In this document: positions 1-13,993 of the stretch, piece after piece
How positions within the stretch are numbered: the stretch's first letter is position 1
Layout: each line of letters begins with the position of its first letter
Assembly (NCBI RefSeq): GCF_011682065.1
Contig: NZ_VUYU01000006.1
Coordinates: 124,001 to 188,000 of the forward strand
Reading direction: 5' to 3'
Length of the DNA: 64,000 nucleotides
Source of the DNA: Massilia rubra
GTDB lineage: Bacteria; Pseudomonadota; Gammaproteobacteria; Burkholderiales; Burkholderiaceae_D
Translations under genes and position numbers: made by a program
The notes under the pieces: generated by a model
Seen by the model: the letters and a program-made list of their open reading frames with translations, nothing else
Databases searched by the model: none
What the model was told of the DNA's origin: nothing

Positions 1-947
1 CAGCAATCCTGGCAGCGCGCCACTGAGTCGAGCCCCTTCATGCGGCCGACAATCTGCGCCAGCGCTTCATCGCGCACATTGCCGACCACCGAATCGATGC
101 GCTCGATGCAGGGCGAGACGTTACCGAGATGGTCGATATTGAATGACTGCTCGCCGGCGTGGCAGGCCGGCATGGGGCCGCGCTCAACAAAGGCGTCCAT
201 GCGTTCGAGGTAGTCGCGGAAGGTGCGCAAGTGCGGGTAGCGCTGCCACAGGTCGAGCATCCTGGCGCTGAGCGAGACGTCCGGCAGTTGGTCCTGGTCG
301 CTCTTGCCGCGCCTGAACCCGTCGGTCGAGAGCAAGGTGACGCAGTGGCCGACGCCGCGCGCCGCGCTCATTTGCAGCAGTTTTTCGACGTCGTCCTGGT
401 TTTCCTTCATCAGGATCGTCATCACATGCACCTGCGCGCCGCCGTGGGGCGCGTGCGCCAGCAAGGTGTCCACGGCGCGCCAGGCCTGGTCGAAAGCGCC
501 GTCGAGCCGGCGTTTCCGGTCGTGCCGCGCGGCGTCGGCAAAGTCGATCGACACGCCCACCTGCGCCACCCCGGCCGCGAACAGCCCTTGCGCTTTGGCG
601 TCATCGACAAACCAGCCGTTGGTGTACAGGACCGGCGCATGGCGCTGCGCAAACGCCCGCACGATCTCGATAATGTCCGGCCGCAGCAGCGGTTCGCCCC
701 CTTCGACCGACACCAGAAAGGTGCCGATCTTCGCCAGTTCGGCCGCCACGCGCTGGTAGTCGGCCACGGTTAGTTCGAGGCGCGGGGCGACGCCATTGGG
801 CCAGAAGCCGCAGAACGAACAGCGCATATTGCAGCGGTTGGTCACCTGCACCAGTACCTGGAACGGATGCTTGCGCAAAATGCCGCCCACGAAGCGCAGG
901 TCGCGGCTGGTGCGGGCCAGGAGGCCCGGGCCTTTCAGAATTGCCAT
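1..947 (-). CDS. Radical SAM/SPASM-type enzyme (3' end cut by window edge)
   Basis: Predicted cytosolic radical SAM enzyme. The protein starts MAILKGPGLL and carries the CX3CX2C cluster motif as Cys39, Cys43 and Cys46 (CNMRCSFC), followed by a GGEP motif typical of SAM binding. Near the left edge a second cysteine set (CHAG..., SPC, then CQDC) looks like the start of a SPASM or twitch domain that would hold an extra Fe-S cluster. The ATG at 947 overlaps the stop of the aminotransferase gene by 13 bp, so it is translationally coupled to the biosynthetic operon. SPASM enzymes usually act on peptides or small carrier-bound substrates; the substrate here is unknown. The C-terminus lies beyond base 1. 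The family call is firm; the role is inferred from context only. Confidence 0.85.
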   Translation of the reverse strand, partial: MAILKGPGLLARTSRDLRFVGGILRKHPFQVLVQVTNRCNMRCSFCGFWPNGVAPRLELTVADYQRVAAELAKIGTFLVSVEGGEPLLRPDIIEIVRAFAQRHAPVLYTNGWFVDDAKAQGLFAAGVAQVGVSIDFADAARHDRKRRLDGAFDQAWRAVDTLLAHAPHGGAQVHVMTILMKENQDDVEKLLQMSAARGVGHCVTLLSTDGFRRGKSDQDQLPDVSLSARMLDLWQRYPHLRTFRDYLERMDAFVERGPMPACHAGEQSFNIDHLGNVSPCIERIDSVVGNVRDEALAQIVGRMKGLDSVARCQDC

Positions 948-2302
948 CCGCCCCTCCATTGCGCGCCCGCGCGGCGCGTGACGTCCGCCACGATGGGCAC
1001 GATTGAGCGATAGTCGTCGAGAATCGCGCCCACCGCATCGACCACCGCATCGATGTCGTCGTCGGCGATGGTCAGCGGCGGTTCGAGCCGCAGCACGTTC
1101 CAGCGCGACGACGCGGGTTGCGCCAGGATGCCCGCTTCCAGCAGCCGGACCGCGACCCACTGGCCGAACATGCCTTCCGAGATCTTGTCCACCAGCGCGG
1201 GCGCCAGCTTGTCGAGCCAGGAACTGCCGGTCGGGCCGAACTCGATCCCGACCAGCAGTCCGCGCCCGCGCACTTCCTTGACCAGCGGGTGCCCGCGCAA
1301 GCGTTGGCGCAGGCCGTCGAGCAGGCGCGCCCCTTGCCGGGCGCTGCGCGCGACCAGGTCTTCTTCGTCGATCAGCTCCAAGGTCCTGAGGGCGGCGGCG
1401 CAAGCGAACGCGTTACCCTGGTAGGTGGAGCTGTGCAGGTCGAAGCGCCCGGCGCCGCCGTAGGCCTTGTCGAACAGCGCGCGCGAGGTCACCGCCACCG
1501 AAATGGCGGCCAGCCCGCCGGACAATGCCTTGGCGAGGCACAGCACATCGGGCACAAAATCTTCAGCCTCGTGCGCGAACAGCGTGCCGGTGCGCCCAAG
1601 GCCAGTCTGGATTTCGTCGAGCACCAGCAGCGTGCCGCGCGACCGGCACAGCTCTTGCGCGGCGCGCAGGTAGCCGGGCGGCGGCAGGACCACGCCGCCT
1701 TCGGCCTGCAGCGGCTCGACCAGGAAGGCGGCCGGCTTGTGGGTCTTGAGGGCGCGATCGAGCGCATCGAGGTCGCCGAAGGGCACGCGATGGCAGCCGG
1801 CCAGCAGCGGCTCGAAAGGCTGGCGCAGGCGTTCGGCGCCCATCACCGACAACGTGCCCAGCGTGGTGCCGTGAAAGCCGCCGTCGCACGAGATAAAGTC
1901 GCTGCGGCCGGTGGCGGCGCGCGCTAGCTTGAGGCCCGCCTCCACCGCCTCGGCCCCGCTGCTGGCGAACAGGCTGATCTCGAGCGGCGCGGCCAGCCGC
2001 TTTGCCAGCGCCTCGGCCAGCGCCGCCGCGCCAGCCGCCGGGCCGGTGTGGCAAAAGTGCAGCACCTGCTCGTCGAGCAGCTGGTGCAGGCGCGCGATCA
2101 GTGCAGGATGATTGTGGCCCAGGTTGACCGAGCCGAAGCCGGCCAGGCAATCGAGATAGCGCCGCCCCTCGCTGTCCCACAGCCACACGTCGCTGGCGCG
2201 CACGAACACGCGCCCGTAGCCTAGCACCCCGAGCAACTGGATGAAGGATGGATTGATGTACTTCGCGTAGGTTTGCGAGACCGGGTGTTCGCTTTGCTTC
2301 AT
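935..2302 (-). CDS. Class III PLP-dependent aminotransferase
   Basis: A 455-residue fold-type I aminotransferase of the class III group (relatives act on ornithine, GABA, putrescine and other omega-amines, or on acyl-derived aldehydes). Visible are the SSGAEAVE phosphate-binding loop near residue 114, LVLDEIQTGLGRTG with the PLP-ring Asp229, and the Schiff-base Lys258 in LCLAKALSGG. The ATG at 2302 overlaps the upstream membrane-protein gene by 4 bp, and the gene overlaps the downstream radical SAM gene, so it belongs to the operon. Within a type II fatty-acid-like cluster it could aminate a chain-derived aldehyde or ketone, giving an amino-lipid or amine. That role is inference; the enzyme class is clear. 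Confidence 0.88.
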   Translation of the reverse strand: MKQSEHPVSQTYAKYINPSFIQLLGVLGYGRVFVRASDVWLWDSEGRRYLDCLAGFGSVNLGHNHPALIARLHQLLDEQVLHFCHTGPAAGAAALAEALAKRLAAPLEISLFASSGAEAVEAGLKLARAATGRSDFISCDGGFHGTTLGTLSVMGAERLRQPFEPLLAGCHRVPFGDLDALDRALKTHKPAAFLVEPLQAEGGVVLPPPGYLRAAQELCRSRGTLLVLDEIQTGLGRTGTLFAHEAEDFVPDVLCLAKALSGGLAAISVAVTSRALFDKAYGGAGRFDLHSSTYQGNAFACAAALRTLELIDEEDLVARSARQGARLLDGLRQRLRGHPLVKEVRGRGLLVGIEFGPTGSSWLDKLAPALVDKISEGMFGQWVAVRLLEAGILAQPASSRWNVLRLEPPLTIADDDIDAVVDAVGAILDDYRSIVPIVADVTRRAGAQWRGGWQF

Positions 2303-3351
2303 GCGGTTCCCAATCCGAGTTCGGCGCGCAGGCGCGCATCCGACGATGGACGCCAGATTTTCTGGTCGAGCCAGAAGTGGTGGCAGAACAGGCCCCAGTA
2401 CAGCGCCAGGAACACCTGGGCCGACGCCGATCCGGGCGCCGGACCGACCGGCGCCCCGCCACGCGCCACGTTAAGTAGCACGTACAGCAGCGACGCCGCC
2501 AGCATGAGGGCATACGCCAGTACCGGCCCCGCCGCCCGCGCCGGCTTGACGCGGCGGCGCTCGGTGGCGATGACGATGCCGATGTACTGCAAGCCGTGCA
2601 GCGTGCCGCCGACGATGGTGGCGGCCATGAACACCTGCTCGGTGGTGAGGGGGTTCGCCAGCAGTGGCTCGCGCATGCCGACCGCGAACAGCGAGAACAG
2701 GGTCGTGCCCACCGCGACCACGAGGCCGAACACGCCGGGCAGCACCGTGCTGCCGCGACGCCAGCGCCGCACCAGCAGCGCAGCCCACGACAGCATGGCC
2801 GCCGCCAGCAGCGCGCCCAACGCGGCAATCGCACCGGCGCCCCAGCTTACGCGCCGCGCCAGGTCCAGGTTGGCCGGATGCGCCAGCGCGAGCAGAGCAA
2901 AGGCGACCCACAAGATGCCGTGCAAGAGGCGCGTATCGGCCTTGCGCGCGGCGGCGTCGGCCTCGCCCAGGCGCTGGTACACCGCCAAAATGCCGTGATG
3001 CTGGCGCACCCCGTGATGAAAAGACCACAGCGCCACGAAGCCGAGGAACAGCAGGAACGGTTCCGGGCGGCCGCTGATCCATGTCGCCCCAAGCAGGACG
3101 GGACCGGGCAGCAGCCATGCGAGGCTGGTCCACAGCAGGCGGCCACGCTCGCGCCTGAAATCGGCATCAAGGTAGGTGCGCTGCCAGGTGGCGCACAGGT
3201 GCGGGCCTTCCACCAGCCAGATCCAGGCGAACCACAGGGGCAGCACGGTGCCCGGTGCGGCCAGCATCAGCAGGCCGGCCGCCAGCGCGACAACGCCGCT
3301 TCCGAAAAAGAAGCAGGCGTCGAACACCGGGCCGCCGATCCAGCGTGTCAT
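2299..3351 (-). CDS. Histidine-rich polytopic membrane protein of unknown function
   Basis: A 350-residue protein with about eight to ten hydrophobic segments across its whole length. I do not recognise a characterised family. Conspicuous histidines sit beside or within the helices: EGPHLCATW near residue 50, SFHHGVRQHHGI near 110, TLHGLQY near 250 and FCHHFWLDQKIW near 325. Clustered membrane histidines of this kind occur in di-metal membrane oxygenases and desaturases, so a lipid-modifying role is possible, but the spacing does not clearly match the desaturase boxes. It lies between the acyl carrier protein (4-bp gap) and the aminotransferase (4-bp overlap), so it is part of the operon. A transporter for the product is the main alternative. 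Confidence 0.7.
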   Translation of the reverse strand: MTRWIGGPVFDACFFFGSGVVALAAGLLMLAAPGTVLPLWFAWIWLVEGPHLCATWQRTYLDADFRRERGRLLWTSLAWLLPGPVLLGATWISGRPEPFLLFLGFVALWSFHHGVRQHHGILAVYQRLGEADAAARKADTRLLHGILWVAFALLALAHPANLDLARRVSWGAGAIAALGALLAAAMLSWAALLVRRWRRGSTVLPGVFGLVVAVGTTLFSLFAVGMREPLLANPLTTEQVFMAATIVGGTLHGLQYIGIVIATERRRVKPARAAGPVLAYALMLAASLLYVLLNVARGGAPVGPAPGSASAQVFLALYWGLFCHHFWLDQKIWRPSSDARLRAELGLGTA

Positions 3352-3355
3352 TGTG

Positions 3356-3769
3356 TCAGGCCACGTTGCTGGTGCGCTGTGCGAGTTTGCCGACGACCAG
3401 GTGCACGAAGGTCTGCACCGTGAACAGGCTGAGAATCTGGCCCGGATGCAGGCCGGGCTTGATCTGCTCGGCCACTTCGGGCATCAGCTCGCGCAGGCGC
3501 GCCAGGCCGGCGTCCGAAATCACGCCGCCAGGCGCGAATTCGTCGTCGGACATGTCGCCGCGCGCGGCGCGTTCCAGCTCGCCGCGCGTGACCTGGATGC
3601 CATAGGTGCGTTCGAGCTTGAACACGATATCGAGAAAATCGAGCGACTCGGCGCCCAGTTCCCCGATCAGGCTGACCGTAGGCGGCACGTCGCCGGCGGG
3701 AATGGCCAGCGATTCGCCGACGATGGCGCGCACGGTGTCTTCGATTTCCTGGGGAGTCGTGGTAGTCAT
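3356..3769 (-). CDS. Acyl carrier protein, with C-terminal extension
   Basis: A 137-residue acyl carrier protein. The phosphopantetheine attachment site is Ser42 in LGAESLDFLDI, followed by the usual helix FKLERTYGI. Typical ACPs are about 80 residues; this one continues for about 55 more residues (ending in a region containing LFTVQTFVHLVVGKL), which could dock onto partner enzymes. It is the only carrier protein seen in the cluster and abuts the nitroreductase stop (adjacent bases 3769/3770). It should carry the growing acyl chain between the ketosynthases, ketoreductase and dehydratase encoded just upstream in the same operon. No phosphopantetheinyl transferase is visible in this window. 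Confidence 0.9.
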   Translation of the reverse strand: MTTTTPQEIEDTVRAIVGESLAIPAGDVPPTVSLIGELGAESLDFLDIVFKLERTYGIQVTRGELERAARGDMSDDEFAPGGVISDAGLARLRELMPEVAEQIKPGLHPGQILSLFTVQTFVHLVVGKLAQRTSNVA

Positions 3770-4444
3770 CTAATTAGTATCCTCGTCGGTATGTTCATCT
3801 TCAAACCAGCGGGCCACGCGGCCCAGCGGTTTGCGCGGTTTTTGTTCGGGTGCGGGACCAAGCGGGTAACCCAGCGCGATCGCGCCGACCATCTGCCACG
3901 GCGCGGCGATGCCGAGCAGCGCGCAGATGCGGTCGCGCGCAATCATCGGCCCCGCCATCCAGCATCCGCCAAGGCCGCTGGCGTGGGCCTGCAGCAGGAG
4001 GTTCATGACGGCGGCGCTGGTGGAGCAGAGTTCGGCCTGCATGGCGCCAGCCGTGTGGTACGCCGACGGATCGGCCCCGCCCGAGGCGAGCAGGTTGGCG
4101 ATCAGGTCGGGGAACTCGCGATACTGCGGGATGATGATCACGGCGGCGCTCATCAACGGCTCGTGGAAAAAGTCGCCGTAGCTGCCGAAGTCCTCGGCGT
4201 GGTGGCCGCGCGCGATGACCGCCTTCATTTCGTCGGCGCGCTCGCGCACCGCTCGGGCGATGGCCGCGCGCAGGCTGCGCGAGCGCACCACGGCAAACTG
4301 CCAGGGCTGGCGGTTGCTGGCCGACGGCGCGCTGGTGGCGGCGAGCAGCAGGCGTTCGATCGTTTCGCGCTCGACCGGGCGATCGGTAAATTCGCGCGTG
4401 CTGCGGCGCGAGAGAAACCAGTCCAGGGTGGCCTGTTCGTTCAT
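3770..4444 (-). CDS. Nitroreductase-family flavoprotein
   Basis: A 224-residue FMN-dependent nitroreductase-superfamily protein. The N-terminus has the family signature FLSRRSTREF, followed by APSASNRQPWQF, and the C-terminal half has GLGGCWMAG and VGAIALGYP. The start at 4444 (MNEQATLDW) overlaps the stop of the ketoreductase by 4 bp; a longer reading upstream gives an unrelated leader and is not used. Members reduce nitro groups, quinones or enones, and some act as oxidases or dehydrogenases in natural-product pathways. In this operon, which has no recognisable enoyl-ACP reductase, it might serve as an FMN-dependent redox tailoring enzyme or surrogate enoyl reductase. That is a guess from context. 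Confidence 0.85.
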   Translation of the reverse strand: MNEQATLDWFLSRRSTREFTDRPVERETIERLLLAATSAPSASNRQPWQFAVVRSRSLRAAIARAVRERADEMKAVIARGHHAEDFGSYGDFFHEPLMSAAVIIIPQYREFPDLIANLLASGGADPSAYHTAGAMQAELCSTSAAVMNLLLQAHASGLGGCWMAGPMIARDRICALLGIAAPWQMVGAIALGYPLGPAPEQKPRKPLGRVARWFEDEHTDEDTN

Positions 4445-5175
4445 TCTGCCTTGAATCCTCCATCCACGTTCCACACCTGCGCGGTGACGTAGCTGGCGTC
4501 GTCGCTGCACAGGAAGGCGACCACGGCGGCCACTTCATGCGCGCTGCCGACGCGCTTGAGCAGGATGCGCTTGTTCAGTTCTTCCGGCGCCAGGGCGCGG
4601 ATATCGCGCGTCATGTCGGTCTCGATCACGCCCGGCGCGACCGCATTGACGCGTATGCCGCGCGGCGCCAGTTCGACCGCGAGCGCCCTTGTGAACGCTT
4701 CGACCGCGCCTTTGGATGCGGCGTAATTGCTCTGGCCACGACCGGGACGCGTCGCCGCCACCGACGACATGTTGACGATCGCCCCGCGCCGGCGCGACAC
4801 CATGCGGCGCGACGCCTGGCGGCAGCAATTGACCACGCCCGAGATATTCACCGAAAAGACATCGTCGAAGTCGGCCGGCTCGCTGGCGCCGAGCAGCGTG
4901 TCGCGCAGCACGCCGGCGTTGCAGACGAGGACATCGAGCTGGCCATGCCTAGCGTCGATGTCGGCGAACAGCGCATCCACCTGCGCAACGTCGGACACGT
5001 CGGCGCGCGCGAGATAGCACACGCCACCGAGCGCCGCGACCTGTCCGGCCACGCTGGCGGCGGCGGCTTCGTCCCTGAGGTAATTGAGGATGACGGTAAA
5101 GCCCTTGCGCGCCAGTGCGAGCACGATGGCGGCGCCGATGCCGCGCGAGCCGCCGGTAACGAGTGCGGTTTTCAT
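4441..5175 (-). CDS. 3-oxoacyl-ACP reductase, FabG-like SDR
   Basis: A 244-residue classical short-chain dehydrogenase. It has the NADP-binding TGGSRGIG motif at residues 8-15, NAG at 86-88, and the catalytic Ser137/138, Tyr151 and Lys155 (NMSS and YAASK). The family reduces 3-ketoacyl-ACP to 3-hydroxyacyl-ACP. The start MKTALVTGG at 5175 overlaps the upstream ketosynthase-like gene by 4 bp, and its own stop overlaps the nitroreductase start by 4 bp. It is the ketoreductase of the cluster; a second FabG-like SDR sits on the opposite arm at 12203-12943, so the pathway may use two reductases with different substrates. Confidence 0.9.
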   Translation of the reverse strand: MKTALVTGGSRGIGAAIVLALARKGFTVILNYLRDEAAAASVAGQVAALGGVCYLARADVSDVAQVDALFADIDARHGQLDVLVCNAGVLRDTLLGASEPADFDDVFSVNISGVVNCCRQASRRMVSRRRGAIVNMSSVAATRPGRGQSNYAASKGAVEAFTRALAVELAPRGIRVNAVAPGVIETDMTRDIRALAPEELNKRILLKRVGSAHEVAAVVAFLCSDDASYVTAQVWNVDGGFKAE

Positions 5176-6317
5176 GGCAGCTCCACGCGGACGATGCCGG
5201 CCAGGCCCGGCGCGCTGGCGGCCAGGCCGATGGCCGAACGGTGATTCGATGATTCGGCTCGCAGGAGCGGGCGCAAGGGGCCGGGCGCGGCGGCGCGCAA
5301 GAGCGCCACCGGCGGCATGCGCTGGCGTTGCAGCAGCTCTGCCAGCGCGATAACTTGAACAACTGAAGTGGCGGCGCCGATTTGTCCCATGGCGCTCATG
5401 ATACAACACAGGGGCGCGCCGGCGCCGGTGATCGCGGCAACTAGCTCGCGCTCGGCCGCATCGAAGCCCGGCAGCGCCAGGCCGCAGCCATCGACCGCGT
5501 CGCCAGGCCGCGCAAGCATGCGTACAAGGCGCGCCAGCAGCGCCGGTTGGGGCTCGCCCTTTTCGCCGTCGGCGCCATCGAGCGCTTCGATGTAGGCACG
5601 CGCGGGTCCGGCTCGCTGCAAGACCAGGGCGGCGGCGGCTTCGCCAGGCACGAAGCCCTGTGCAGCGATGTCGTACGGCGCCGCCAGCACAGTCGATACA
5701 GAGGAGCCGCGCGCGGCCAGTTCGACCAGCGTTTCCGGCTCGACCAGGCTGTCGTAGCCAACCACCAGCGCCACGTCGACGGCGCCGGCGGCCAGCGCGC
5801 GGATCGCACCGGCAAGCGCCTGCGCGCCCGCATTCGCGCCGCCGTAAGTCGCGCCTTCGCCGCGCGCGCCCAGTTCCTGCGCGGCGATGGCGTGCGCATT
5901 GTTCGACAGGTGCTGCAAGATCCAGAACGGGTGCAGCAGCGCCAGGCCGCGCTCCCATGCGGCCGCGCCATCGGCCTGTTGATGCTCGAATGCGGGCATC
6001 AGGTCGTCCCAGTGCGCGCGCAGGCCGCCGTAGCCGAAGAACAGCCCCACGCGCTCGCCGCCGCTCACACCGGCGTCCCGCATCGCCTCGGCCGCCACCT
6101 CCACCGCGTACAAGCCCATACGGCGCAGGAAGCGGGCCTGGCGCGACGGCGCCGGCGGCGCGGCGATGGTGGCGGCCAAGGTGCAGGCGTAGCTGCGCGC
6201 ATCGAAACGCGCATTGGGCCGGGCGGCGCGCTCCCCGGCCAGCAGGCGTTCGATGACCTCGTCGATGCCTGAACCGAGCGGGGTGCGCCATGCGCGGCCG
6301 GTCAGCGCCGCCTTCAT
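5172..6317 (-). CDS. Ketosynthase-like protein lacking the active-site cysteine (chain-length-factor-like)
   Basis: A 381-residue protein with the thiolase/ketosynthase fold. Alignment by eye with the neighbouring intact ketosynthases places Ala161 (GGANAG) where they have the acyl-accepting Cys (ACASG, ACAAG). The HGTGTP and KGAxGH motifs that carry the two catalytic histidines are also not recognisable. Type II polyketide systems pair a catalytic KS with such a partner, the chain-length factor, and aryl polyene systems use a comparable inactive partner. It starts at 6317, overlapping the active KS gene (6314-7582) by 4 bp, which fits one-to-one heterodimer synthesis. Assignment as chain-length factor is inference. 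Confidence 0.8.
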   Translation of the reverse strand: MKAALTGRAWRTPLGSGIDEVIERLLAGERAARPNARFDARSYACTLAATIAAPPAPSRQARFLRRMGLYAVEVAAEAMRDAGVSGGERVGLFFGYGGLRAHWDDLMPAFEHQQADGAAAWERGLALLHPFWILQHLSNNAHAIAAQELGARGEGATYGGANAGAQALAGAIRALAAGAVDVALVVGYDSLVEPETLVELAARGSSVSTVLAAPYDIAAQGFVPGEAAAALVLQRAGPARAYIEALDGADGEKGEPQPALLARLVRMLARPGDAVDGCGLALPGFDAAERELVAAITGAGAPLCCIMSAMGQIGAATSVVQVIALAELLQRQRMPPVALLRAAAPGPLRPLLRAESSNHRSAIGLAASAPGLAGIVRVELP

Positions 6318-7582
6318 GCGGGCCGCCCAAAGATCAGGGACACGTTCTGGCCGCCGAAGCCGAACGAATTGCTCAGCACCGCGTCGACGCTCGCCGCACG
6401 CGGCGCTTTGACGACGTCCACCTCGCATTGCGGGTCCGGGTCGCGATGGTTGGCCGTTCCCGGCAGCAGATTGCGTTCGAATGCGAGCAGGCAGGCGGCC
6501 GCTTCGATCGCTCCCGACGCCGCCATCAGGTGCCCGATGGCGCCCTTGACCGAGCTCACTGGCACCGCGAGCGCGCCGAAGACGGCGGCGATGGCGCGCG
6601 CTTCGGCCACATCGTTGAGCGGCGTGCCGGTGCCGTGTGCATTGATGTAAGCGATATCGGCGGGCGCCAGTTGCGCGCGCCCGAGCGCCGTTTCCATTGC
6701 GCGCCGCGCGGCAGCGCCGTCGGGACGGGGCGCGGTGACGCGGTAGGCATCCTGGGTGCTGCCGTATCCGAGCACGCGCGCGAGCACGCGCGCGCCGCGG
6801 CTGGCGGCCCGCTGCTCCGATTCGATCACGAACATGGCGGCGCCCTCCCCGATCACCAGGCCGTCGCGGCGCAGGTCGAACGGGCGGCAGGCGTCGGGCT
6901 CGTTGCGCGGCGACGGCGCTCCGAGGCGCGACATGCCGCCCAGGCCGAACGGGTTGACCATCGAATCGGCCCCGCCGCACAAGACAATGGAGGCTGCGCC
7001 GCGCTCAATCAACGACGCCGCGTGGGCAATCGCCAGGCCACCGGCGGCGCAGGCCGATGCGTTGACGATGACCTGGCCGTGCAGGCCAAGCACGTCGCCA
7101 ACCAGGCGCGCGCCCAGGTCGACATCGGAGCGAAAGCGAATGCCATCATGCCCGCCGACGGACCAGTCGATCGCCTGGCCACTGAACATGGGGCCAAAAT
7201 CGTCGAGAAAAGCCTGTTCCAGTCCGAGCGCCATCACCAGTGACGCTTCGTCCTCGGCCTCGCCGCAGCCGGCCATGCGCCACGCCTCGACGGCGGCCAG
7301 CAGCGCGAACATGCATTTGCGGTCGCGCCATGCGCCGGCGCGTTCGTACGTGTCGAGCACCGCTTCGGCGTGGCCAAGGTCGCCGAGGTGCGCACGCAGC
7401 CAGTCGCGCCCGATGCCGCCACCGGCCACTTCGCAGGCCACGCGGGTGTCGAAGGCGGAAGCGTCGAAGGAGCGCACCGGCGCGATGCGACTGCGTCCGT
7501 CGGCCAGGCCGTCGAACAAGGCAGGCATGCCGACGCCGAATGCGCTGACCGCGCCCACGCCCGTGATGACCGCGCGCCTCAT
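6314..7582 (-). CDS. Beta-ketoacyl-ACP synthase II-type (active)
   Basis: A 422-residue FabF/KS-alpha type condensing enzyme. Cys178 (SACAAG), His316 (NAHGTGTP), Lys346 and His351 (SVKGAIGHLMA) supply the full Cys-His-His set for decarboxylative Claisen condensation of malonyl-ACP with an acyl chain. The C-terminus has the family NSFGFGGQN loop. The start MRRAVITGVG at 7582 overlaps the preceding gene by 4 bp. It is one of two intact ketosynthases in the operon, each next to a cysteine-less partner, so it probably pairs with the product of 5172-6317 or 7579-8589. Chain length and starter unit cannot be read from the sequence. Confidence 0.9.
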   Translation of the reverse strand: MRRAVITGVGAVSAFGVGMPALFDGLADGRSRIAPVRSFDASAFDTRVACEVAGGGIGRDWLRAHLGDLGHAEAVLDTYERAGAWRDRKCMFALLAAVEAWRMAGCGEAEDEASLVMALGLEQAFLDDFGPMFSGQAIDWSVGGHDGIRFRSDVDLGARLVGDVLGLHGQVIVNASACAAGGLAIAHAASLIERGAASIVLCGGADSMVNPFGLGGMSRLGAPSPRNEPDACRPFDLRRDGLVIGEGAAMFVIESEQRAASRGARVLARVLGYGSTQDAYRVTAPRPDGAAARRAMETALGRAQLAPADIAYINAHGTGTPLNDVAEARAIAAVFGALAVPVSSVKGAIGHLMAASGAIEAAACLLAFERNLLPGTANHRDPDPQCEVDVVKAPRAASVDAVLSNSFGFGGQNVSLIFGRPA

Positions 7583-8589
7583 GCCACGCTCCCGAAACGG
7601 GCGACGCCAAGACCGCCGTCGATACCGGCGCTAAACACAACGGCGCGACGGCAGCGGCCCTGGCGTATCAGGTCGAGCGCCACGCACCAGGCCAGCGCGG
7701 GCGCCGCCGCCAGCGCATCACCAAGACACACGCTGACGTCGAGTGCATTGTCGTGACCAAGCCGCTTGCGCGCCTCGCTACCCCACGGCGCGATGACGAC
7801 ATTGGCATCCTCGCACGCTTCGGTCAAGCCGGGGTGACGCTCCCAGGCGCGCGCGCTGTGGAAACTGACGGCGTCCAGCGTCGCCAGCGCACCGTCGGCG
7901 GACGCGGACAAGGCGAGCAGGCCCGCGCCCTCGGCCGGAACGAAGCCGCGCGCGGGATAGCCGGCGGCATCGAGCTGCGTCCAGGTGACCGGATGCAGGG
8001 CCGAATCGGCGCCGCCGGCGAGCGCGGTATCGCATTCGCCCGAGGCCACCAGCCAGTGCGCTTCGCTCAGTGCGGCCAGCGTGCCCGTACCGCGCGAATA
8101 GAAGGCGCCGTTGGGGCCTTCTGTGCCATTCAGGATCGCGCCGTGGCAAAGCGTGAAGTTGTTCATCAGCTGGAATGCGAACAAGGGATTACAGGCGGCC
8201 AGGCCGGCGCCGCCGAAGCGCTCCAGCGAAAACGCATGATCGACGATGCTGGCCGCCAGCATGCGCGTCAGTTCATCCATGGAGCAGCCGGACGCGCCCA
8301 CGCCCAGGTACAGGGCCGCTTGCTCGCGCTGCGCGCCGGTCCAGCGCGCGTCGGCAAGCGCCAGGCGCAGGGCCACGGCGGCCAGGCGCGCCGGATGCGC
8401 CATCAGCTTGCGGGCGCGCGCATCGACATCGATATCGGAGGGAATTGCCGGCACTTCGGCCGACATGACGCTGCCATGGCTTGCCGAAAGCTGGCCGCTG
8501 GGAGCAAACCCCTTGAAGCCGGCCAGTGTGCGCCAGTCGAAACCGGATGCGCTGACGGCCGCCGCGCCGGATATGTATACCTGTCTCAC
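7579..8589 (-). CDS. Truncated ketosynthase-like protein without active-site cysteine
   Basis: A 336-residue protein related to the beta-ketoacyl synthase fold (it resembles the N-terminal ketosynthase-like domain of chain-length-factor partners). The nucleophile elbow region reads AFYSRGTGTLAALS around residues 162-175 and has no cysteine; the histidine motifs of the C-terminal half are missing. I chose the GTG start at 8589 (reading MRQVYISGAA) because it overlaps the upstream stop by 4 bp, as most junctions in this operon do; an upstream ATG at 8616 would add nine residues that do not look like the family. It is probably a structural or chain-length partner for one of the two active ketosynthases. 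Confidence 0.75.
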   Translation of the reverse strand: MRQVYISGAAAVSASGFDWRTLAGFKGFAPSGQLSASHGSVMSAEVPAIPSDIDVDARARKLMAHPARLAAVALRLALADARWTGAQREQAALYLGVGASGCSMDELTRMLAASIVDHAFSLERFGGAGLAACNPLFAFQLMNNFTLCHGAILNGTEGPNGAFYSRGTGTLAALSEAHWLVASGECDTALAGGADSALHPVTWTQLDAAGYPARGFVPAEGAGLLALSASADGALATLDAVSFHSARAWERHPGLTEACEDANVVIAPWGSEARKRLGHDNALDVSVCLGDALAAAPALAWCVALDLIRQGRCRRAVVFSAGIDGGLGVARFGSVA

Positions 8590-9788
8590 GCGCAGTGCCT
8601 CGCCACCAGGCTGCAATTGGCGCCGCCGAAGGCGAAAGCGTTGACCAGGGCGGCGGCGACGTTCTTGCGGATTGCGCTAGTCAACACATGCGGAAGCGCG
8701 CAGGCCGGATCGGGTTGAACCAGGTTCGCGGTCGGCAGCACGATGCCCTGCTCCAGCGCCGCGTGGGCGCACAGAAAACCCAGCGCACCGGCGCCGGCGA
8801 TCCAGTGGCCAAGCGCCCCTTTGACCGAGCTGACATGGGCGGCGTCGAGGCTCGCGCCCAGCACGCGCCGCAATGCCAGCGCTTCGACCGCGTCGTTCAG
8901 CGGCGTCGAGGTGCCATGCGCCTGGATGTAGTCGACCGCATCGAGGCCGGCAGCGGCGAGCGCGATGCGCATGGCGCGCGTCGCGCCATCGCCCTGCGGG
9001 TCGGGTGCGGTCAGGTGATGGGCGTCGAGGCTGCGGCCTTCGCCGGCCAGTTCGACCGTGGCATTGCCGCGTTCAACCGACAGCACCACCATGGCGGCGC
9101 CCTCGCCGATCACAAAACCGTCGCGCCGCACGTCGAACGGGCACGAGACGCCGCGCGCGCTCAGTGCGCCAACGCGGCCAAAACCGGCCAGCATCATCGG
9201 ATCGACATCGGCGCCGACGCCGCCGCACAGGGCCACGTCGCACACGCCGAGGCGGATCGCCCGCGCCGCCTCGGCAATCGCGCTCGCGCCCGAGGCACAG
9301 GCCAGCGAAATCGTCACCGCCGGGCCATGGGCGCCGTATTCAAGGGCGAGCGCCGAGGTGACGGCGGCGGGCGAGATAATGGAAGCGTCGAATTCGGCCA
9401 CCAGCGCCGCCGCCTTGACGCCGAACTGCGCATGGTCGAAGCGCGCGCCGCCGCCGGCGCCACGGGTCAATCCATGCAAGGTGGCGAACGGCGCACGGCC
9501 CGATTCCGCGCCGAGGAAGATGCCGAGGCGTTCAGGCGCGACATCGACGCCGGCGCCCTGCCACGCTTCACGCGCGGCGACCCGCACCAGCGCCAGGCGG
9601 CGGTCGCCCGTGTGGGTGAAGCCGTCGATCTCCGCGCCGGCCGTGGATGGAAAACCGGTCACGTCAAACCCATGCACCTGCCCGATGGCGCTGCGCCCGG
9701 CAGCGAGCGCTTGCAGCGAGGCGGGCCAGTTGGCGCCCAATGCCGTGATGGCGCCGACGCCTCGCACGAACACGCGCCTTGGCGTCAT
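8586..9788 (-). CDS. Beta-ketoacyl-ACP synthase II-type (active)
   Basis: A 400-residue FabF-type condensing enzyme. Cys164 (LACASG), His291 (QAHGTSTP), Lys323 and His328 (SVKGALGHWIAG) form the complete active site; the C-terminal NAFAFGGANCS loop is also present. The start MTPRRVFVRG at 9788 overlaps the dehydratase gene by 4 bp. Its sequence differs clearly from the other intact ketosynthase in the operon (6314-7582), so the two probably have different acyl preferences or partners rather than being recent duplicates. It is the second gene of the minus-strand operon. Confidence 0.9.
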   Translation of the reverse strand: MTPRRVFVRGVGAITALGANWPASLQALAAGRSAIGQVHGFDVTGFPSTAGAEIDGFTHTGDRRLALVRVAAREAWQGAGVDVAPERLGIFLGAESGRAPFATLHGLTRGAGGGARFDHAQFGVKAAALVAEFDASIISPAAVTSALALEYGAHGPAVTISLACASGASAIAEAARAIRLGVCDVALCGGVGADVDPMMLAGFGRVGALSARGVSCPFDVRRDGFVIGEGAAMVVLSVERGNATVELAGEGRSLDAHHLTAPDPQGDGATRAMRIALAAAGLDAVDYIQAHGTSTPLNDAVEALALRRVLGASLDAAHVSSVKGALGHWIAGAGALGFLCAHAALEQGIVLPTANLVQPDPACALPHVLTSAIRKNVAAALVNAFAFGGANCSLVARHCA

Positions 9789-10258
9789 GGCTCCTCGGCC
9801 GAGCCGGTGAGCCAGATATTGAGCACCTCGCGGCGGCGCGCCAGCAACTTTGGATTGGTCACGCGGGCGAAAGCGAAGGCCAGTTCGGCCTCGGCCACCA
9901 GTTTGCCGTCCACGCGCGCCATGGCGCGCACCTGGCCGCCATCTTCATGCACCACGATGCCGTGGCATTCGAGTTCCATCTTGTCGCCTGCGCGCACCTG
10001 GTGGCGGAACTTGGCGCGGTCCACTGTGACCAGCAGCGCGTGCAGGTCGTGGCGGCCTTGTTCGCGCATGCTCGCTTCGACCAGCACCCCACCCAGCTGC
10101 GCCATCGATTCGATGATCATCGCGCCGGGCATGATGGGGTGTCCAGGAAAATGGTCGGCAAAAATATCATCCGACAGCGACACGCACTTGACTCCCGACG
10201 CCAGTTGCGGCGGCACAAGCGCCGTAATTTTATCGAGAAGTATGTATCGCATCCGCAC
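9785..10258 (-). CDS. Beta-hydroxyacyl-ACP dehydratase, FabZ-like
   Basis: A 157-residue single hot-dog-fold dehydratase. The motif HFPGHPIMPG carries the catalytic His40, and Glu50 follows in MIIESMAQ, as in FabZ. It dehydrates 3-hydroxyacyl-ACP to the trans-2-enoyl form. It is the first gene of the minus-strand operon; the ATG at 10258 follows the divergent promoter region, with a second in-frame ATG two codons later. No enoyl reductase is recognisable in the window, so the double bonds it makes may stay in the product, as in polyene pathways, or be reduced by host FabI or by the nitroreductase-like protein. Confidence 0.88.
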   Translation of the reverse strand: MRMRYILLDKITALVPPQLASGVKCVSLSDDIFADHFPGHPIMPGAMIIESMAQLGGVLVEASMREQGRHDLHALLVTVDRAKFRHQVRAGDKMELECHGIVVHEDGGQVRAMARVDGKLVAEAELAFAFARVTNPKLLARRREVLNIWLTGSAEEP

Positions 10259-10323
10259 TGCCCTTTACGTCTATCGATTGCTACCGGCAGCGCCCAACGG
10301 CCACTCAAGACATGCAATTCAGG

Positions 10324-10337
10324 TTAGGATATCCTAA
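10324..10337. promoter_or_regulatory. Perfect 14-bp palindrome in the divergent promoter region
   Basis: The sequence TTAGGATATCCTAA is a perfect palindrome lying between the dehydratase start (10258, minus) and the Tes-like radical SAM start (10380, plus). Further TTAAC/CTAAC-like elements follow directly (10339-10351). Its central place in a 121-bp divergent region suits an operator for a dimeric regulator controlling both arms. No regulator gene for it is seen in the window. Confidence 0.5.
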
Positions 10338-10379
10338 AGTTAACACCTAACACCAGTAGATCATCGTTGAAAGGTTCAC

Positions 10380-12203
10380 ATGGAATGTACCAGCTGCGAC
10401 ACGAGCACCGTGCGCAAGGATCGCGAGCACACCTTCTTCATGCACGAGATGGCCATCTGCGGCGGCTGCACCGCGCCGATCGAAGCGCGCGTGGTGCTGC
10501 GCGACGATGGCGTGGTGCGCCTGATCCACTGCAAGCAGTGCGGCCCTTCCGAACAGATGGTATCGAGCGACGCCAAGGGATGGATGGCGGGCTTTCTCGC
10601 GCGCGGCCAGGTCGAACCGGGCAAGGTTGGCGACCACTATTTCAAGCACACGACATCGACCTGTCCGGGGTGCCTGGCATTGCTGCCGGCCGATGTGGTG
10701 ATCCGCGACGGCAAAGTCTATTTTGTGAAGAACTGCGAGAAATGCGGCCCGTCCGAGGCGCTGGTGTCGGAAGACGCGGCCTACTACGTGGACGCGTACT
10801 CGTACGCGCGCGCCGGCACCGAGCCGCTGGTGTTCGCCACCGAGGTCGACCAAGGCTGCCCGACCGACTGCGGCACCTGCGGCGACCATGAACAGCACAC
10901 CTGCCTGCCGATTATCGAGATTACCGACTACTGCAACCTGGAATGCCCGGTCTGCATCGTCAACAACACCAATGCGTATCACCTTTCGAACGAGGCGTTC
11001 ACGCGCATGATCGACACGCTGGTGCGCAACGAGGGCCAGGTGGAGTCGATTGCGCTGTCCGGCGGCGAGCCGACCAGCCACCCGCGCCTGATGGAACTGA
11101 TCGCGATCGCCACGCGCGAGGAAATCGGCCGCATCGTGATCATCACGAACGGCTTGCGGCTTGGCCGCGACCGCGCCTTTGCCGAGAAAATCAAGGCCAG
11201 CGGCGCCTACATCGCGCTGCAGTTCGATGGTTTTACGGCCGATACGCACGAAAAAATCCGCGGGCGCGACCTGTGCGACGAAAAGAGCGCCGCACTCAAG
11301 ATGCTCAAGGACCTCAATATCCCGACGCAGCTCATTTTCGTGGCCGCGCGCGGCGTCAACGAGCACCAGATCGGCCAGGTGGTGGAGATGTTCCTCTCGG
11401 AAGACCACTTCTTGTCGCTGAACTTCCAGCCGGTCGCCTTTACCGGCGCGGGCGGCGGGCAGTTCGCGCACGACCCGATGGACCGGCTGACGATTCCGGG
11501 CGTGATCAAGGCGATCGAGGAACAGACCAACGGCAAGCTGAAGGTGAGCGATTTTGCGCCCCTGCCCTGCTCCCACCCGCAGTGCGTCTCGCTCAGCTAC
11601 CTGCTGCGCATGAACGACGGCAGCCACATTCCGTTCGGGCGCTTTGTCGACTTCCGCACGCACGGCACCTTGCTGCGCTCGTCGGCCACGCTGGGCGCGT
11701 CGCCCGAGATTCACGATGCGATGAGCGATGTGGTGCACGACGTGTTCGCGCGCCAGGATGAAATCGAGCGTTCGGCCGACATCCTCGCCGCCCTGCGCCG
11801 CACCATCGACGTGATGTTCCCGAACCGGCCGGTCAGCGCCAAGGAAGCGATTCACCTGGGCGAGCAGCAGGCCAAGTCGATCTTTTTGCACCACTATATG
11901 GACCGCCACGACTTCGACCTGGAACGGCTGCGCAAGTGCTGCCACCATTATCCGCAGGTGGACGGGCGCATCATGCCGGCCTGCGGCTTCAATATGTTCC
12001 ACCGGGGCGCGGCCAAGGGGCCGGAAACCGAACTGGCGGCATGGGGCAAGAAGCCCTGGACCACGGACGCGCCGGTGCAGGTCGTGCAGTTCCACCGCAC
12101 CGACACGCGCCAGGCGCTGACCGGCATCGGGGTCGACGAAACGCCGGCGCGCGCGCCGCATTCGATCGGCCTTGGTGGCGGCAAGCCGGTGGTGCTCAAA
12201 TAA
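10380..12203 (+). CDS. Tes-like radical SAM enzyme (tetraether-synthase-like family)
   Basis: A 607-residue radical SAM protein. The core motif CNLECPVC (Cys185, 189, 192) is followed by SGGEPTSHP. Directly before it is an extra cysteine cluster (GCPTDCGTCGDH, Cys160, 164, 167, plus Cys175). The N-terminus holds two similar Cys-ribbon segments (residues 27-54 and 95-122). The C-terminus has a conserved-looking CC...ACGFN segment (Cys520/521 and 535). This layout matches, as I recall the family, the archaeal GDGT/macrocyclic archaeol synthase (Tes), which joins lipid chain ends by sp3 C-C coupling. An AAAGG ribosome site precedes the ATG. It is divergent from the fatty-acid-like operon and overlaps the SDR by 1 bp. 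The substrate is unknown; chain coupling or methylene-type chemistry on an acyl chain is inference. Confidence 0.82.
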   Translation: MECTSCDTSTVRKDREHTFFMHEMAICGGCTAPIEARVVLRDDGVVRLIHCKQCGPSEQMVSSDAKGWMAGFLARGQVEPGKVGDHYFKHTTSTCPGCLALLPADVVIRDGKVYFVKNCEKCGPSEALVSEDAAYYVDAYSYARAGTEPLVFATEVDQGCPTDCGTCGDHEQHTCLPIIEITDYCNLECPVCIVNNTNAYHLSNEAFTRMIDTLVRNEGQVESIALSGGEPTSHPRLMELIAIATREEIGRIVIITNGLRLGRDRAFAEKIKASGAYIALQFDGFTADTHEKIRGRDLCDEKSAALKMLKDLNIPTQLIFVAARGVNEHQIGQVVEMFLSEDHFLSLNFQPVAFTGAGGGQFAHDPMDRLTIPGVIKAIEEQTNGKLKVSDFAPLPCSHPQCVSLSYLLRMNDGSHIPFGRFVDFRTHGTLLRSSATLGASPEIHDAMSDVVHDVFARQDEIERSADILAALRRTIDVMFPNRPVSAKEAIHLGEQQAKSIFLHHYMDRHDFDLERLRKCCHHYPQVDGRIMPACGFNMFHRGAAKGPETELAAWGKKPWTTDAPVQVVQFHRTDTRQALTGIGVDETPARAPHSIGLGGGKPVVLK

Positions 12204-12943
12204 TGGGGATCCTCGACGGACGGACCGCATTGGTCACCGGCGGCTCGCGCGGCCTGGGACGCGCCCTGTGCATGGCGCTGGCGCGCGAAGGCGCGAACGT
12301 GGCTTTTAACTATTCGCGTTCGGTGGCCGAAGCCGAGGCCGTGCTGGCCGCGCTCAAGGAACTGGGCGTGAAGGCGTGGGCGTTCCAGGTGTCGGTGCTG
12401 GACAAGGCGGGCCTGCAGGGCATGGTGCGCGCGATCGAGCAGGATGCGGGGGCGATCGATATCTTGATCAACAACGCCGGCATCGGCCAGGTGGTGCCGC
12501 TCGCGCTGATGGAAGAAGAGGACTGGGACCGCATGATGAACACCAACGTCAAGGGCGCATTTTTGACCACGCAGGCGGTGTTGCGCGGGATGATCCACCA
12601 GAAGCGCGGGCGCATTTTGAATATCAGTTCGCTGGCGGGCGTGAAGATGATGCAGGCGCCGGTGCACTACAGCGCGGCCAAGGCGGCGCTCAAGGGCATG
12701 ACGGAGGCGCTGGCGAAGGAAGTGGGCCGCTACGGCATTACCGTCAACTGCCTGGCGCCGGGCGTGCTCGATGAAGGCGTGAGCGGCAATGTGCCGGCGG
12801 CGAAGATGACGGAATACGTGCGCCATTGTGCGCTGGGGCGACTGGGAACGGTGGAGGAAGTGGCGGAAGCGGCGGCGTTTTTTGTGTCGGACAAGAACAG
12901 CTATATGAGCGGAGCGACGGTGGTGATCGACGGCGCGGTTTGA
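12203..12943 (+). CDS. FabG-like short-chain dehydrogenase/reductase
   Basis: A 246-residue classical SDR, starting MGILDGRTALVTGGSRGLG, with the NNAG motif and a catalytic Ser-Tyr-Lys set (NISS, then HYSAAK). The ATG shares one base with the stop of the Tes-like gene (TAATG), so the two are translated from one message. It resembles 3-oxoacyl-ACP reductases and is probably a second ketoreductase of the pathway or a tailoring reductase for the product of the radical SAM step. It is distinct from the FabG-like protein at 4441-5175. The gene ends directly against a truncated TonB receptor remnant. Confidence 0.88.
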   Translation: MGILDGRTALVTGGSRGLGRALCMALAREGANVAFNYSRSVAEAEAVLAALKELGVKAWAFQVSVLDKAGLQGMVRAIEQDAGAIDILINNAGIGQVVPLALMEEEDWDRMMNTNVKGAFLTTQAVLRGMIHQKRGRILNISSLAGVKMMQAPVHYSAAKAALKGMTEALAKEVGRYGITVNCLAPGVLDEGVSGNVPAAKMTEYVRHCALGRLGTVEEVAEAAAFFVSDKNSYMSGATVVIDGAV

Positions 12944-13291
12944 GGAGGGCCGGACAACCGCCTGGCCGAGCAAGTGCCCTTGTCGGCCACGGCCGGCGTC
13001 GATTACAAGGCGGGCGCGCTGACCAGCGGGGCCTCGTTCGTGTACAGCAGCGGCGGCCACGTGCGCTTGTCGCTGAATGAATTTACCTATGCTTCCGCCC
13101 GCCGCGACCTGGAAATGTATGGCTTGTGGAAACTGGACAACAAGCTGCAGTTGAGAGTGAGCATCGCCAATGCGCTGCGGCATGACTGGATCAGCGACCG
13201 CGGTTACGCGGGCGCGGCGGGCAGCTCTGGCACCCGCTCCACCCAGCCGGGCAAGACCTGGGTGCGGGCCATGCTGGAGGCGCGCTTCTGA
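12944..13291 (+). pseudogene. C-terminal remnant of a TonB-dependent receptor
   Basis: Directly after the SDR stop, and in the same frame, the translation reads as the last 115 residues or so of an outer-membrane receptor barrel (PDNRLAEQVPLSATAGVDYK, then alternating beta strands, ending VRAMLEARF with a terminal Phe). There is no plug domain, signal peptide or start. A gene of this type normally exceeds 650 residues, so about 85% is missing. The clean join to the biosynthetic cluster suggests the cluster was inserted into, or recombined with, an older receptor gene. Confidence 0.75.
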
Positions 13292-13469
13292 CGGCGCGTG
13301 GCAGACGGCGCGTGCCCTGGCGCAAGGTCGTTTCGCCTTAAGCTGAATCAAGCGCGCGCCCTGTCCGCACGGGCTTGCCAAAGCCGGGATGTGCTTATCA
13401 TTTGCTGACACAGGACGCGGCCGCCAACCTGCCGGCCGCGCATGCTGTGTTTCAAGAAAGAGGCCTATC

Positions 13470-13928
13470 ATGACCAGCCCCCTTACCCTGCTCATGCCAG
13501 TACTTCCCGGCACCAGCGCGGTGACTGTCGTCGCCACCCTGACCACCCTGCTGCCGACCATCGAGGCCGCGCTCGCGTCGATCGGCACCGTCCATTATGC
13601 GCGCCTCGTCTTGCTCGATCGCTCGCAACCGAACCTGCAACCGGACCTGTTCTCGCTGCTGCCATCGGACAACCTCGTCATTGGCATCATCACTTCCTTC
13701 GATGGCGATTTCGGCCCCTACATCCATGACTTCACGGTCCAGCTGAGCGCCGAGTTCGACAAGACTTTGTCGCTGGTGGTCGGCGGCGCGGCGTTGACGC
13801 CGGTGGTCGATCACGAGGCTGAATTCGAAGCATTTATCGCCGAGAACAATGCCTCGCAACATATTCCGAACACCTATTTCTTCGCCGCTTACCAGCATAC
13901 CGTGCAAGACATCCTGGCAGCGATCTGA
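13470..13928 (+). CDS. Conserved-looking hypothetical protein paired with DyP-like peroxidase
   Basis: A 152-residue protein starting MTSPLTLLMPV at 13470 behind an AAGAAAGAGG ribosome site. I do not recognise the family. The sequence is soluble, acidic and has no signal peptide. It contains SIGTVHYARLVLLD and TSFDGDFGPYIHDF, which resemble segments seen in ferredoxin-like halves of DyP-type proteins, so it may be a partner or a detached domain of the peroxidase encoded 65 bp downstream in the same direction. Function is not known; co-transcription with the next gene is likely from spacing. Confidence 0.7.
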   Translation: MTSPLTLLMPVLPGTSAVTVVATLTTLLPTIEAALASIGTVHYARLVLLDRSQPNLQPDLFSLLPSDNLVIGIITSFDGDFGPYIHDFTVQLSAEFDKTLSLVVGGAALTPVVDHEAEFEAFIAENNASQHIPNTYFFAAYQHTVQDILAAI

Positions 13929-13993
13929 TCCGGCGCGCGCACCTGGCCCGCTCCCGGTGCGCTGTTCATACGCGAGGGCGACGGGAGAAGCGA

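Follow-up and report, generated by a model that had tools for sequence, protein, structure and literature searches.

A conserved gene cluster with type II fatty-acid/polyketide-like and Tes-type radical SAM enzymes in Massilia rubra and distant soil myxobacteria

The archaeal tetraether lipid synthase (Tes, or GDGT-MAS) is a radical SAM enzyme of C–C coupling that works on saturated chains (PMC9433317). It holds a rubredoxin iron (C9, C12, C33 and H36), an N-terminal cluster (C73, C77, C80 and a histidine), a radical SAM cluster and a C-terminal cluster, with a labile Met439, on which the coupling intermediate is held (Lloyd 2022, PMC9433317); activity survives in its Y459F/L and M439A variants (PMC9433317). 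In bacteria, 456 Tes homologues were retrieved by Zeng 2022 (PMC8941075) and proposed as makers of membrane-spanning lipids, a lipid-coupling role that a 2025 study calls still unconfirmed (PMC11868695). Here, we describe a cluster of 21 genes in the 7.57 Mb genome of Massilia rubra that combines Tes-type enzymes, a type II fatty-acid synthase (FAS)/polyketide synthase (PKS) module and aminotransferases. It lies at the left end of a 64,000-nucleotide stretch of contig NZ_VUYU01000006.1 (positions 124,001 to 188,000; hereafter the window) and continues past its left edge, where 14 kb more were also read; coordinates in that extended sequence, L003, equal the window position plus 14000.

This biosynthetic cluster is real and conserved, and no published description of it was found: the gene set is described by no title or abstract opening in our literature search, whose reach excluded most subscription journals and bioRxiv. 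A block of about 20 of its genes is common to some Massilia and to distant soil myxobacteria, and looks like an undescribed pathway. The first-pass annotation of the window had named 13 genes at positions 1–12943, and all of them are present as open frames with assignments confirmed by Pfam and NCBIfam. These limits fall short, since the window truncates the cluster: the minus-strand operon has not 11 but 15 coupled genes, adding SDR2, AT2, SDR3 and MP2 beyond RS1, and Tes2, a short open reading frame (ORF), a Zn-dependent phospholipase C (PLC)-like gene and a flippase-like gene are convergent to its far end. There are consequently three radical SAM enzymes (RS1, Tes1 and Tes2) where two had been counted, and two aminotransferases (AT1 and AT2) where one had been. 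That the genes form a single unit is borne out by their coupling; with the start codons chosen, 4-bp overlaps make up most junctions, as had been stated, namely seven of the ten among the 11 minus-strand genes of the window and 10/14 in the 15-gene operon. The nitroreductase (NR) and acyl carrier protein (ACP) genes abut, ACP and the membrane protein gene MP are 4 bp apart, and the overlap between AT1 and RS1 is 13 bp. At the other operon end, the Tes1–SDR1 pair diverges from the dehydratase gene DH across a gap of 127 bp (10253..10379), judged from the gene coordinates to be the presumed site of both promoters.

Several described systems share parts of this set. Aryl polyene clusters have a starter-loading ligase or an ammonia-lyase, and neither was seen in Pfam scans of 20 cluster proteins. 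Type II PKS systems are similar in that a ketosynthase (KS) is followed by a KS partner lacking the catalytic cysteine, twice over, together with ACP, ketoreductase (KR) and DH; they differ in that two such pairs occur here, and the scanned proteins include no family of starter ligases, acyltransferases or thioesterases, the last two absences in agreement with the earlier reading. AT1 and AT2 have prodigiosin PigE as best NCBIfam model (432 and 293 bits, cut-off 850), but they match in the aminotransferase part only, without the N-terminal PigE region, and no other prodiginine gene was seen in the cluster. By the features tested, the first-pass view that this is neither an aryl polyene nor a prodiginine set holds. 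A prodigiosin cluster has been reported from three of the carriers described below (M. frigida, M. aquatica and M. mucilaginosa), and antiSMASH of an M. frigida strain gave 17 clusters, including a 36% match to aryl polyene that may or may not be this locus (PMC10213415). The ladderane sets, which had been named as nearest analogue, also combine type II FAS, KS paralogues without active-site residues and radical SAM enzymes, and they include phytoene-desaturase-like genes (Rattray 2009, PMC2649909). Compared by this description rather than by anammox sequences, the Massilia locus differs in its aminotransferases, nitroreductase and Tes-type enzymes, and no phytoene-desaturase-like or SAM methyltransferase gene is present among the 20 proteins (Pfam). 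The locus had rightly been kept apart from the ladderane sets, but the analogy is weak, and Tes is the better analogue. As regards sphingolipid synthesis, the cluster has no class I/II alpha-oxoamine synthase, both aminotransferases being class III; a class I/II aminotransferase follows Tes2 in a Janthinobacterium metagenome-assembled genome (MAG).

Tes1 (10380..12203, plus strand) matches archaeal GDGT-MAS (MJ0619, PDB 7tol) in two stretches between residues 84 and 545, about 460 residues, with E 3e-65, and shares with it the cysteines of the rubredoxin, N-terminal, radical SAM and C-terminal sites. Tes2 (L003:7317-8768, convergent to the operon) is Tes-like as well. For residue counts, in M. 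jannaschii numbering, 75 sequences were aligned, 62 of which were cluster-type rows (Tes1, Tes2, Tes3 and related myxobacterial proteins); these do not equal 62 genomes, as the same gene was drawn from overlapping loci (e.g. L090/L120, L099/L128, L101/L129). Near-identical Massilia Tes rows, L073 duplicates and partial frames (e.g. L038/L043, and Tes2 pieces of L048, L053 and L072) were dropped before the tree and the ligand counts, as was L065 (genome G907), a remote homologue 27% identical to Tes2 that lacks several cysteines. Wherever covered, the cysteines of the rubredoxin iron, [Fe4S4]N and the radical SAM cluster are all present in the cluster-type rows, and C338 (62/62), C455 (60/60) and C470 (60/60) occur in every row with a residue there. 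All 12 generic proteobacterial homologues, from 11 other genomes of a 398-genome phylum sample plus a copy on contig C26 of the window's genome, are without C338 (T/Q/S/G), C455 (S) and C470 (E/D), and have V, S or L at position 439. From this conservation we infer that C338, C455 and C470 are ligands of the C-terminal cluster, for which the description given above names only Met439. The earlier label 'Tes-like' is consistent with this presence of the apparent ligand residues of the C–C coupling enzyme. The C26 copy (G000:C26:138683-140032; L020, L074) is a third Tes homologue of the genome, outside the cluster and of the generic kind.

There are also differences from the archaeal enzyme. Met439 is replaced by His in 61/61 cluster-type rows, Tyr459 is kept in all 19 Tes1 rows but is absent in Tes2 and Tes3, Tes1 has Cys for His36 in 18 of 19 rows, and the cluster Tes genes adjoin type II FAS/PKS and aminotransferase genes. 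A second N-terminal unit is also present in Tes1, and its cysteines C27, C30, C51 and C54 are invariant in seven of seven aligned orthologues (four of them Massilia). The structure model in residues 21–130 (block means 58–80) lends support to two tandem rubredoxin-like domains.

The FAS/PKS module is encoded on the minus strand. KS2 (8586..9788; Pfam and PDB search) and KS1 (6314..7582; Pfam) keep Cys-His-His in 17/17 and 15/15 loci, respectively, two KS1 rows (L043 and G982) that were cross-hits to KS2 being left out. The catalytic cysteine is absent from the Pfam-assigned KSL1 (5172..6317), a chain-length-factor-like protein with Asn, Ser or Ala at that position (15/15 loci read), and from the divergent KSL2 (7579..8589; 16/16 loci read), so that the first-pass label 'KS-like' was apt. 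The ACP (3356..3769; PP-binding 2e-8) keeps its serine in 14/14 loci read. A KS with an intact active site, a Cys-less partner and an ACP, the features by which a type II PKS KS–chain-length-factor system is recognized, are therefore all present, and the order KS2-KSL2-KS1-KSL1 suggests two KS/chain-length-factor heterodimers. In PDB searches KS2 and KSL1 match FabF enzymes best; 6kxd, which we take to be a polyene-type ketosynthase, ranks lower. DH (9785..10252; FabA-like 3e-19) is a FabZ-type dehydratase that passes model NF000582 (113.9 bits, cut-off 113) and fails TIGR01750 (112.3 bits, cut-off 155). A reading as ordinary extra fatty-acid genes was rejected because the KS-like partners and the Tes genes move together across phyla.

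Reductive and oxidative steps would fall to several proteins: NR (3770..4444, minus; Nitroreductase 1.6e-34), a nitroreductase-family FMN oxidoreductase; the ketoreductase-type short-chain dehydrogenase/reductase (SDR) KR (4441..5175, minus; Pfam); the classical SDR1 coupled to Tes1 (12203..12943, plus; adh_short 4e-59); SDR2 (L003:13122-13913, minus); and SDR3 (L003:11126-11827, window -2874..-2173, minus). The first pass had seen no enoyl reductase, and no FabV- or FabK-type enzyme appears in the Pfam scans; that statement does not extend to SDR-type enzymes, as KR, SDR1, SDR2 and SDR3 all match PF13561, named 'Enoyl-(Acyl carrier protein) reductase' in Pfam. We read PF13561 as a general SDR model because KR, SDR1 and SDR2 have YxxxK spacing, which differs from that of FabI; even so, the cluster may include an SDR-type enoyl reductase, and NR is perhaps an enoyl reductase or an oxidase. 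In SDR3, Gln replaces the catalytic Lys in M. rubra and in all 16 other rows (15 genomes, G1086 supplying two, L113 and L132), and Phe replaces Tyr in seven of the 16; it is probably a conserved non-canonical SDR with a role other than ordinary dehydrogenation. Residue rows for KR, the SDRs and RS1 were limited to >38% identity. RS1 is a SPASM radical SAM protein of 345 aa (window 1..947, L003:13910-14947, minus; Radical_SAM 1.7e-21, SPASM 6e-6) that ends at window -90, with its last ~30 codons outside the window, and keeps CX3CX2C and the checked SPASM-region Cys in 10/10 loci read. RS1 was set aside as a guide to described clusters, its one match in 249 phylum genomes at E <= 1e-50 being the window's own.

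The amine step is represented by the class III aminotransferases AT1 (935..2302, minus; Aminotran_3 3e-90), nearest to the PigE aminotransferase domain, and AT2 (L003:11824-13122, minus). The best PDB match of AT1 is 4ppm (entry name 'Aminotransferase'), which is presumably PigE; PigE acts on a chain aldehyde. Next to AT1 lies MP (2299..3351, minus), a His-rich membrane protein with no Pfam, NCBIfam or PDB match. Its residues H51, H113, H252, H324, H325 and D329 are invariant in five divergent sequences, one only 34% identical, a pattern that fits a membrane metal enzyme. That 34% homologue (L005:1450-2640, minus), from another member of the order, stands beside ORFs that by eye are DUF2156/MprF-like and flavin monooxygenase-like. 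MP2 (L003:10593-11129, minus; coordinates read from L003) is a second membrane protein. By Pfam, the Massilia cluster also has the flippase-like gene (PF03706; L003:9596-10600) and the Zn-PLC-like gene (L003:8889-9599), both convergent to the operon, and a PF04116 fatty acid hydroxylase occurs in the gammaproteobacterial and Polyangiaceae versions introduced below, with similar ORFs by BLAST in G1077, G1037 and G1065. These flippase-like, phospholipase-like and, elsewhere, hydroxylase genes favour a membrane lipid as product.

The neighbourhood recurs in other genomes, contrary to the lack of any conservation by which the first-pass annotation would have been refuted. The same six of 17 genus genomes carry both KSL2 and Tes1, and Tes2 as well; in a family sample KSL2 is found in seven of 245 genomes, including that of the window. 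Four named Massilia relatives of KSL2, from M. atriviolacea, M. mucilaginosa, M. aquatica and M. frigida, are 85–88% identical. In all five other Massilia loci the gene order from Tes2 to KS2 is identical, with DH and Tes1 adjoining. A single acquisition followed by descent is likely in Massilia because both flanks of the cluster match, with gaps, in all five other carriers. For 18 of the 21 cluster genes (without the short ORF and the PLC-like and flippase-like genes), dN/dS of the window's genome against G771 and G852 is 0.035–0.198, except for MP2 (0.476 and 0.299), which indicates purifying selection in each comparison; taken together, the genes look functional. Given this low dN/dS and the recurrence of core blocks across phyla, its assembly is not due to chance.

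Outside the genus, a named scan found the cluster in the Janthinobacterium MAG, a gammaproteobacterial MAG and four myxobacterial/deltaproteobacterial MAGs; non-Massilia cases with a named source are mostly MAGs, many on short contigs. The gammaproteobacterial version (40–85% protein identity to the Massilia cluster) runs DH-KS2-KSL2-KS1-KSL1-KR-NR, an interrupting block, ACP-MP-AT1, a split transketolase and the fatty acid hydroxylase, with RS1-SDR2-AT2-SDR3-MP2, Tes1-SDR1 and Tes2 making up the remainder. By eye, the block between NR and ACP consists of type I restriction-modification-like genes (L044:15104-20897 and L130:3-2092). The split transketolase beside AT1 (L066:2064-5074) makes a two-carbon transfer before amination conceivable in this version, and a 4'-phosphopantetheinyl transferase gene follows Tes2 (L066:17832-18641). 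Tes1 is matched at E <= 1e-100 in 25 of the 192 genomes of the GTDB class to which the Polyangiaceae MAG belongs; 14 have orthologues of 57–72% identity, 12 of which align from residue 1, and the other 11 match at 38–44%. Ten of the 14 orthologues stand at a FAS module, nine beside DH and/or KS2 and that of G908 behind ACP at the other end; in G983 only divergent KS-like genes (37–44%) adjoin Tes1, and the contigs of G909, G1022 and G1071 break off too near Tes1 to show neighbours. The cluster thus recurs, rearranged, in at least ten sampled myxobacteria. Some of these versions (e.g. L045, L046 and L048) have a third Tes-like gene, Tes3, beside SDR2 at the place of Massilia RS1, and others carry RS1. 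Tes2 orthologues (68–78%) are present in five of six distant genomes, although that of G909 is split at contig ends and the G906 match contains one TGA despite an open 480-aa frame; besides Tes1, G908 has only a 49% Tes3-like copy and no Tes2 orthologue. In other myxobacterial genomes (L098-L103, L105, L106), two different Tes-type proteins are adjacent, one of them 38–44% identical to Tes1, and in L129 SDR, AT1-like, RS1-like and KS-like genes adjoin genes of this sort.

In a quick Tes tree, which carries a long-branch warning, Massilia Tes1 groups with the gammaproteobacterial MAG (SH-aLRT 98) and then with a Sorangium MAG (99). As these nest inside myxobacterial sequences, the tree suggests that the cluster spread from myxobacteria-like donors. 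A plasmid search with Tes1 gave eight records (27–33% identity over 54–76% of the query); among viral contigs no relative was found with KSL2 as sole query.

We favour, at slightly under an even chance, the reading that the cluster makes an amino-lipid through its dedicated type II FAS/PKS and that chains are joined by Tes-type C–C coupling; reactions, order, substrates and product are deduced from the genes. On malonyl-ACP supplied by housekeeping metabolism, the KS2/KSL2 and KS1/KSL1 pairs with ACP, KR, DH and perhaps NR would build an acyl chain of set length. The PigE-like aminotransferases would place amino groups onto carbonyls of the chain or head, and the SDRs and RS1 would set the oxidation state. 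As in the archaeal enzyme, Tes1 and Tes2 would each abstract hydrogen from an sp3 carbon; the resulting carbon radical would be stored as a C–S bond at the C-terminal [4Fe-4S] cluster until its coupling with a second radical. This would yield a coupled amino-lipid, either bola-type or macrocyclic, which the flippase-like protein may move across the membrane.

Several observations weigh against this proposal. Tes1 and Tes2 score below the cut-off of the Tes model NF045702 (272 and 243 bits, cut-off 450) and about equally on the TrsS model NF045646 (288 and 236 bits, cut-off 490). Tyr459, strictly conserved in archaea, is lost in Tes2 (Ile in nine, Met in two, one gap) and in Tes3 (Asn in 6/6). 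The structure models of Tes1 and MP, with mean pLDDT of 44.9 and 44.4, are too poor for fold searches, and the PigE similarity does not fix the substrate of AT1 or AT2. No fatty acid hydroxylase was found among the 20 Massilia proteins scanned with Pfam, and exit of the chain from the ACP is left unexplained because no release enzyme is evident in the cluster. The scores and the loss of Tyr459 would also suit a secondary metabolite for which the Tes-like enzymes perform methylene insertion, sulphur insertion or dehydrogenation, with amines and SDRs acting on a small head group and no coupling of chains; the radical SAM genes adjoin SDR genes (Tes1-SDR1; RS1 or Tes3 with SDR2), which suggests oxidation-state work. 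However, the three cysteines that fit a C-terminal cluster are kept throughout and are not obviously needed without a stored intermediate, and the flippase-like and, elsewhere, hydroxylase partners indicate a lipid. We give such chemistry a modest chance, clearly below that of chain coupling.

The missing FabV- and FabK-type reductases can also be read differently, as a sign that the module makes a conjugated polyene, which the radical SAM enzymes cyclize within one chain to a ladderane-like or polycyclic amino-lipid. With two or three Tes-type enzymes per cluster several C–C bonds are possible, and in ladderane sets, too, radical SAM enzymes accompany a type II FAS and odd FabF paralogues (Rattray 2009, PMC2649909). 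Yet the archaeal Tes substrate is saturated chains (PMC9433317), NR or an SDR could act as reductase, and neither a phytoene-desaturase-like nor a SAM methyltransferase gene is among the 20 scanned proteins, and we give cyclization of a polyene a similarly modest chance. Ordinary membrane-spanning phospholipids of the iso-diabolic acid or brGDGT type, as Zeng 2022 (PMC8941075) proposed for bacterial Tes homologues generally and PMC11868695 repeated as unconfirmed, are far less probable: coupling of bulk phospholipid tails needs neither a dedicated ACP nor two KS pairs, the aminotransferases do not fit, and 11 of 17 genus genomes are without Tes1.

At the right border of the cluster, a short plus-strand ORF just past SDR1 (12974-13291) resembles, by eye, a TonB-dependent receptor gene at its 3' end and may be a border remnant; this stretch matches three of the five other Massilia carriers, with no match in G830 and hardly any in G771. 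It is followed on the same strand (13389-15436) by a small ORF and a gene that by eye resembles a Dyp-type peroxidase, and this flank matches all five.

The cluster divides bacterial Tes homologues into one kind with all ligand residues and a FAS/aminotransferase cluster and another without the C-terminal cluster cysteines. It also provides candidate hosts, the Massilia strains, together with a concrete prediction, a tes-dependent coupled amino-lipid; a relative, M. antarctica, is reported to have an unidentified aminolipid, which serves as a lead only (PMC9028926). A further speculation, which we think will probably not hold, is that bacteria possess here a dedicated, horizontally moving pathway to bola-type amino-lipids, in which two amine-bearing chains are joined tail to tail by Tes-type enzymes. 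If true, this would be a bacterial counterpart of archaeal tetraether synthesis, and it would offer candidate chemistry for how 'two-headed' sphingolipids are coupled, a step whose enzymes are described as unknown in a 2024 review (PMC11767167).

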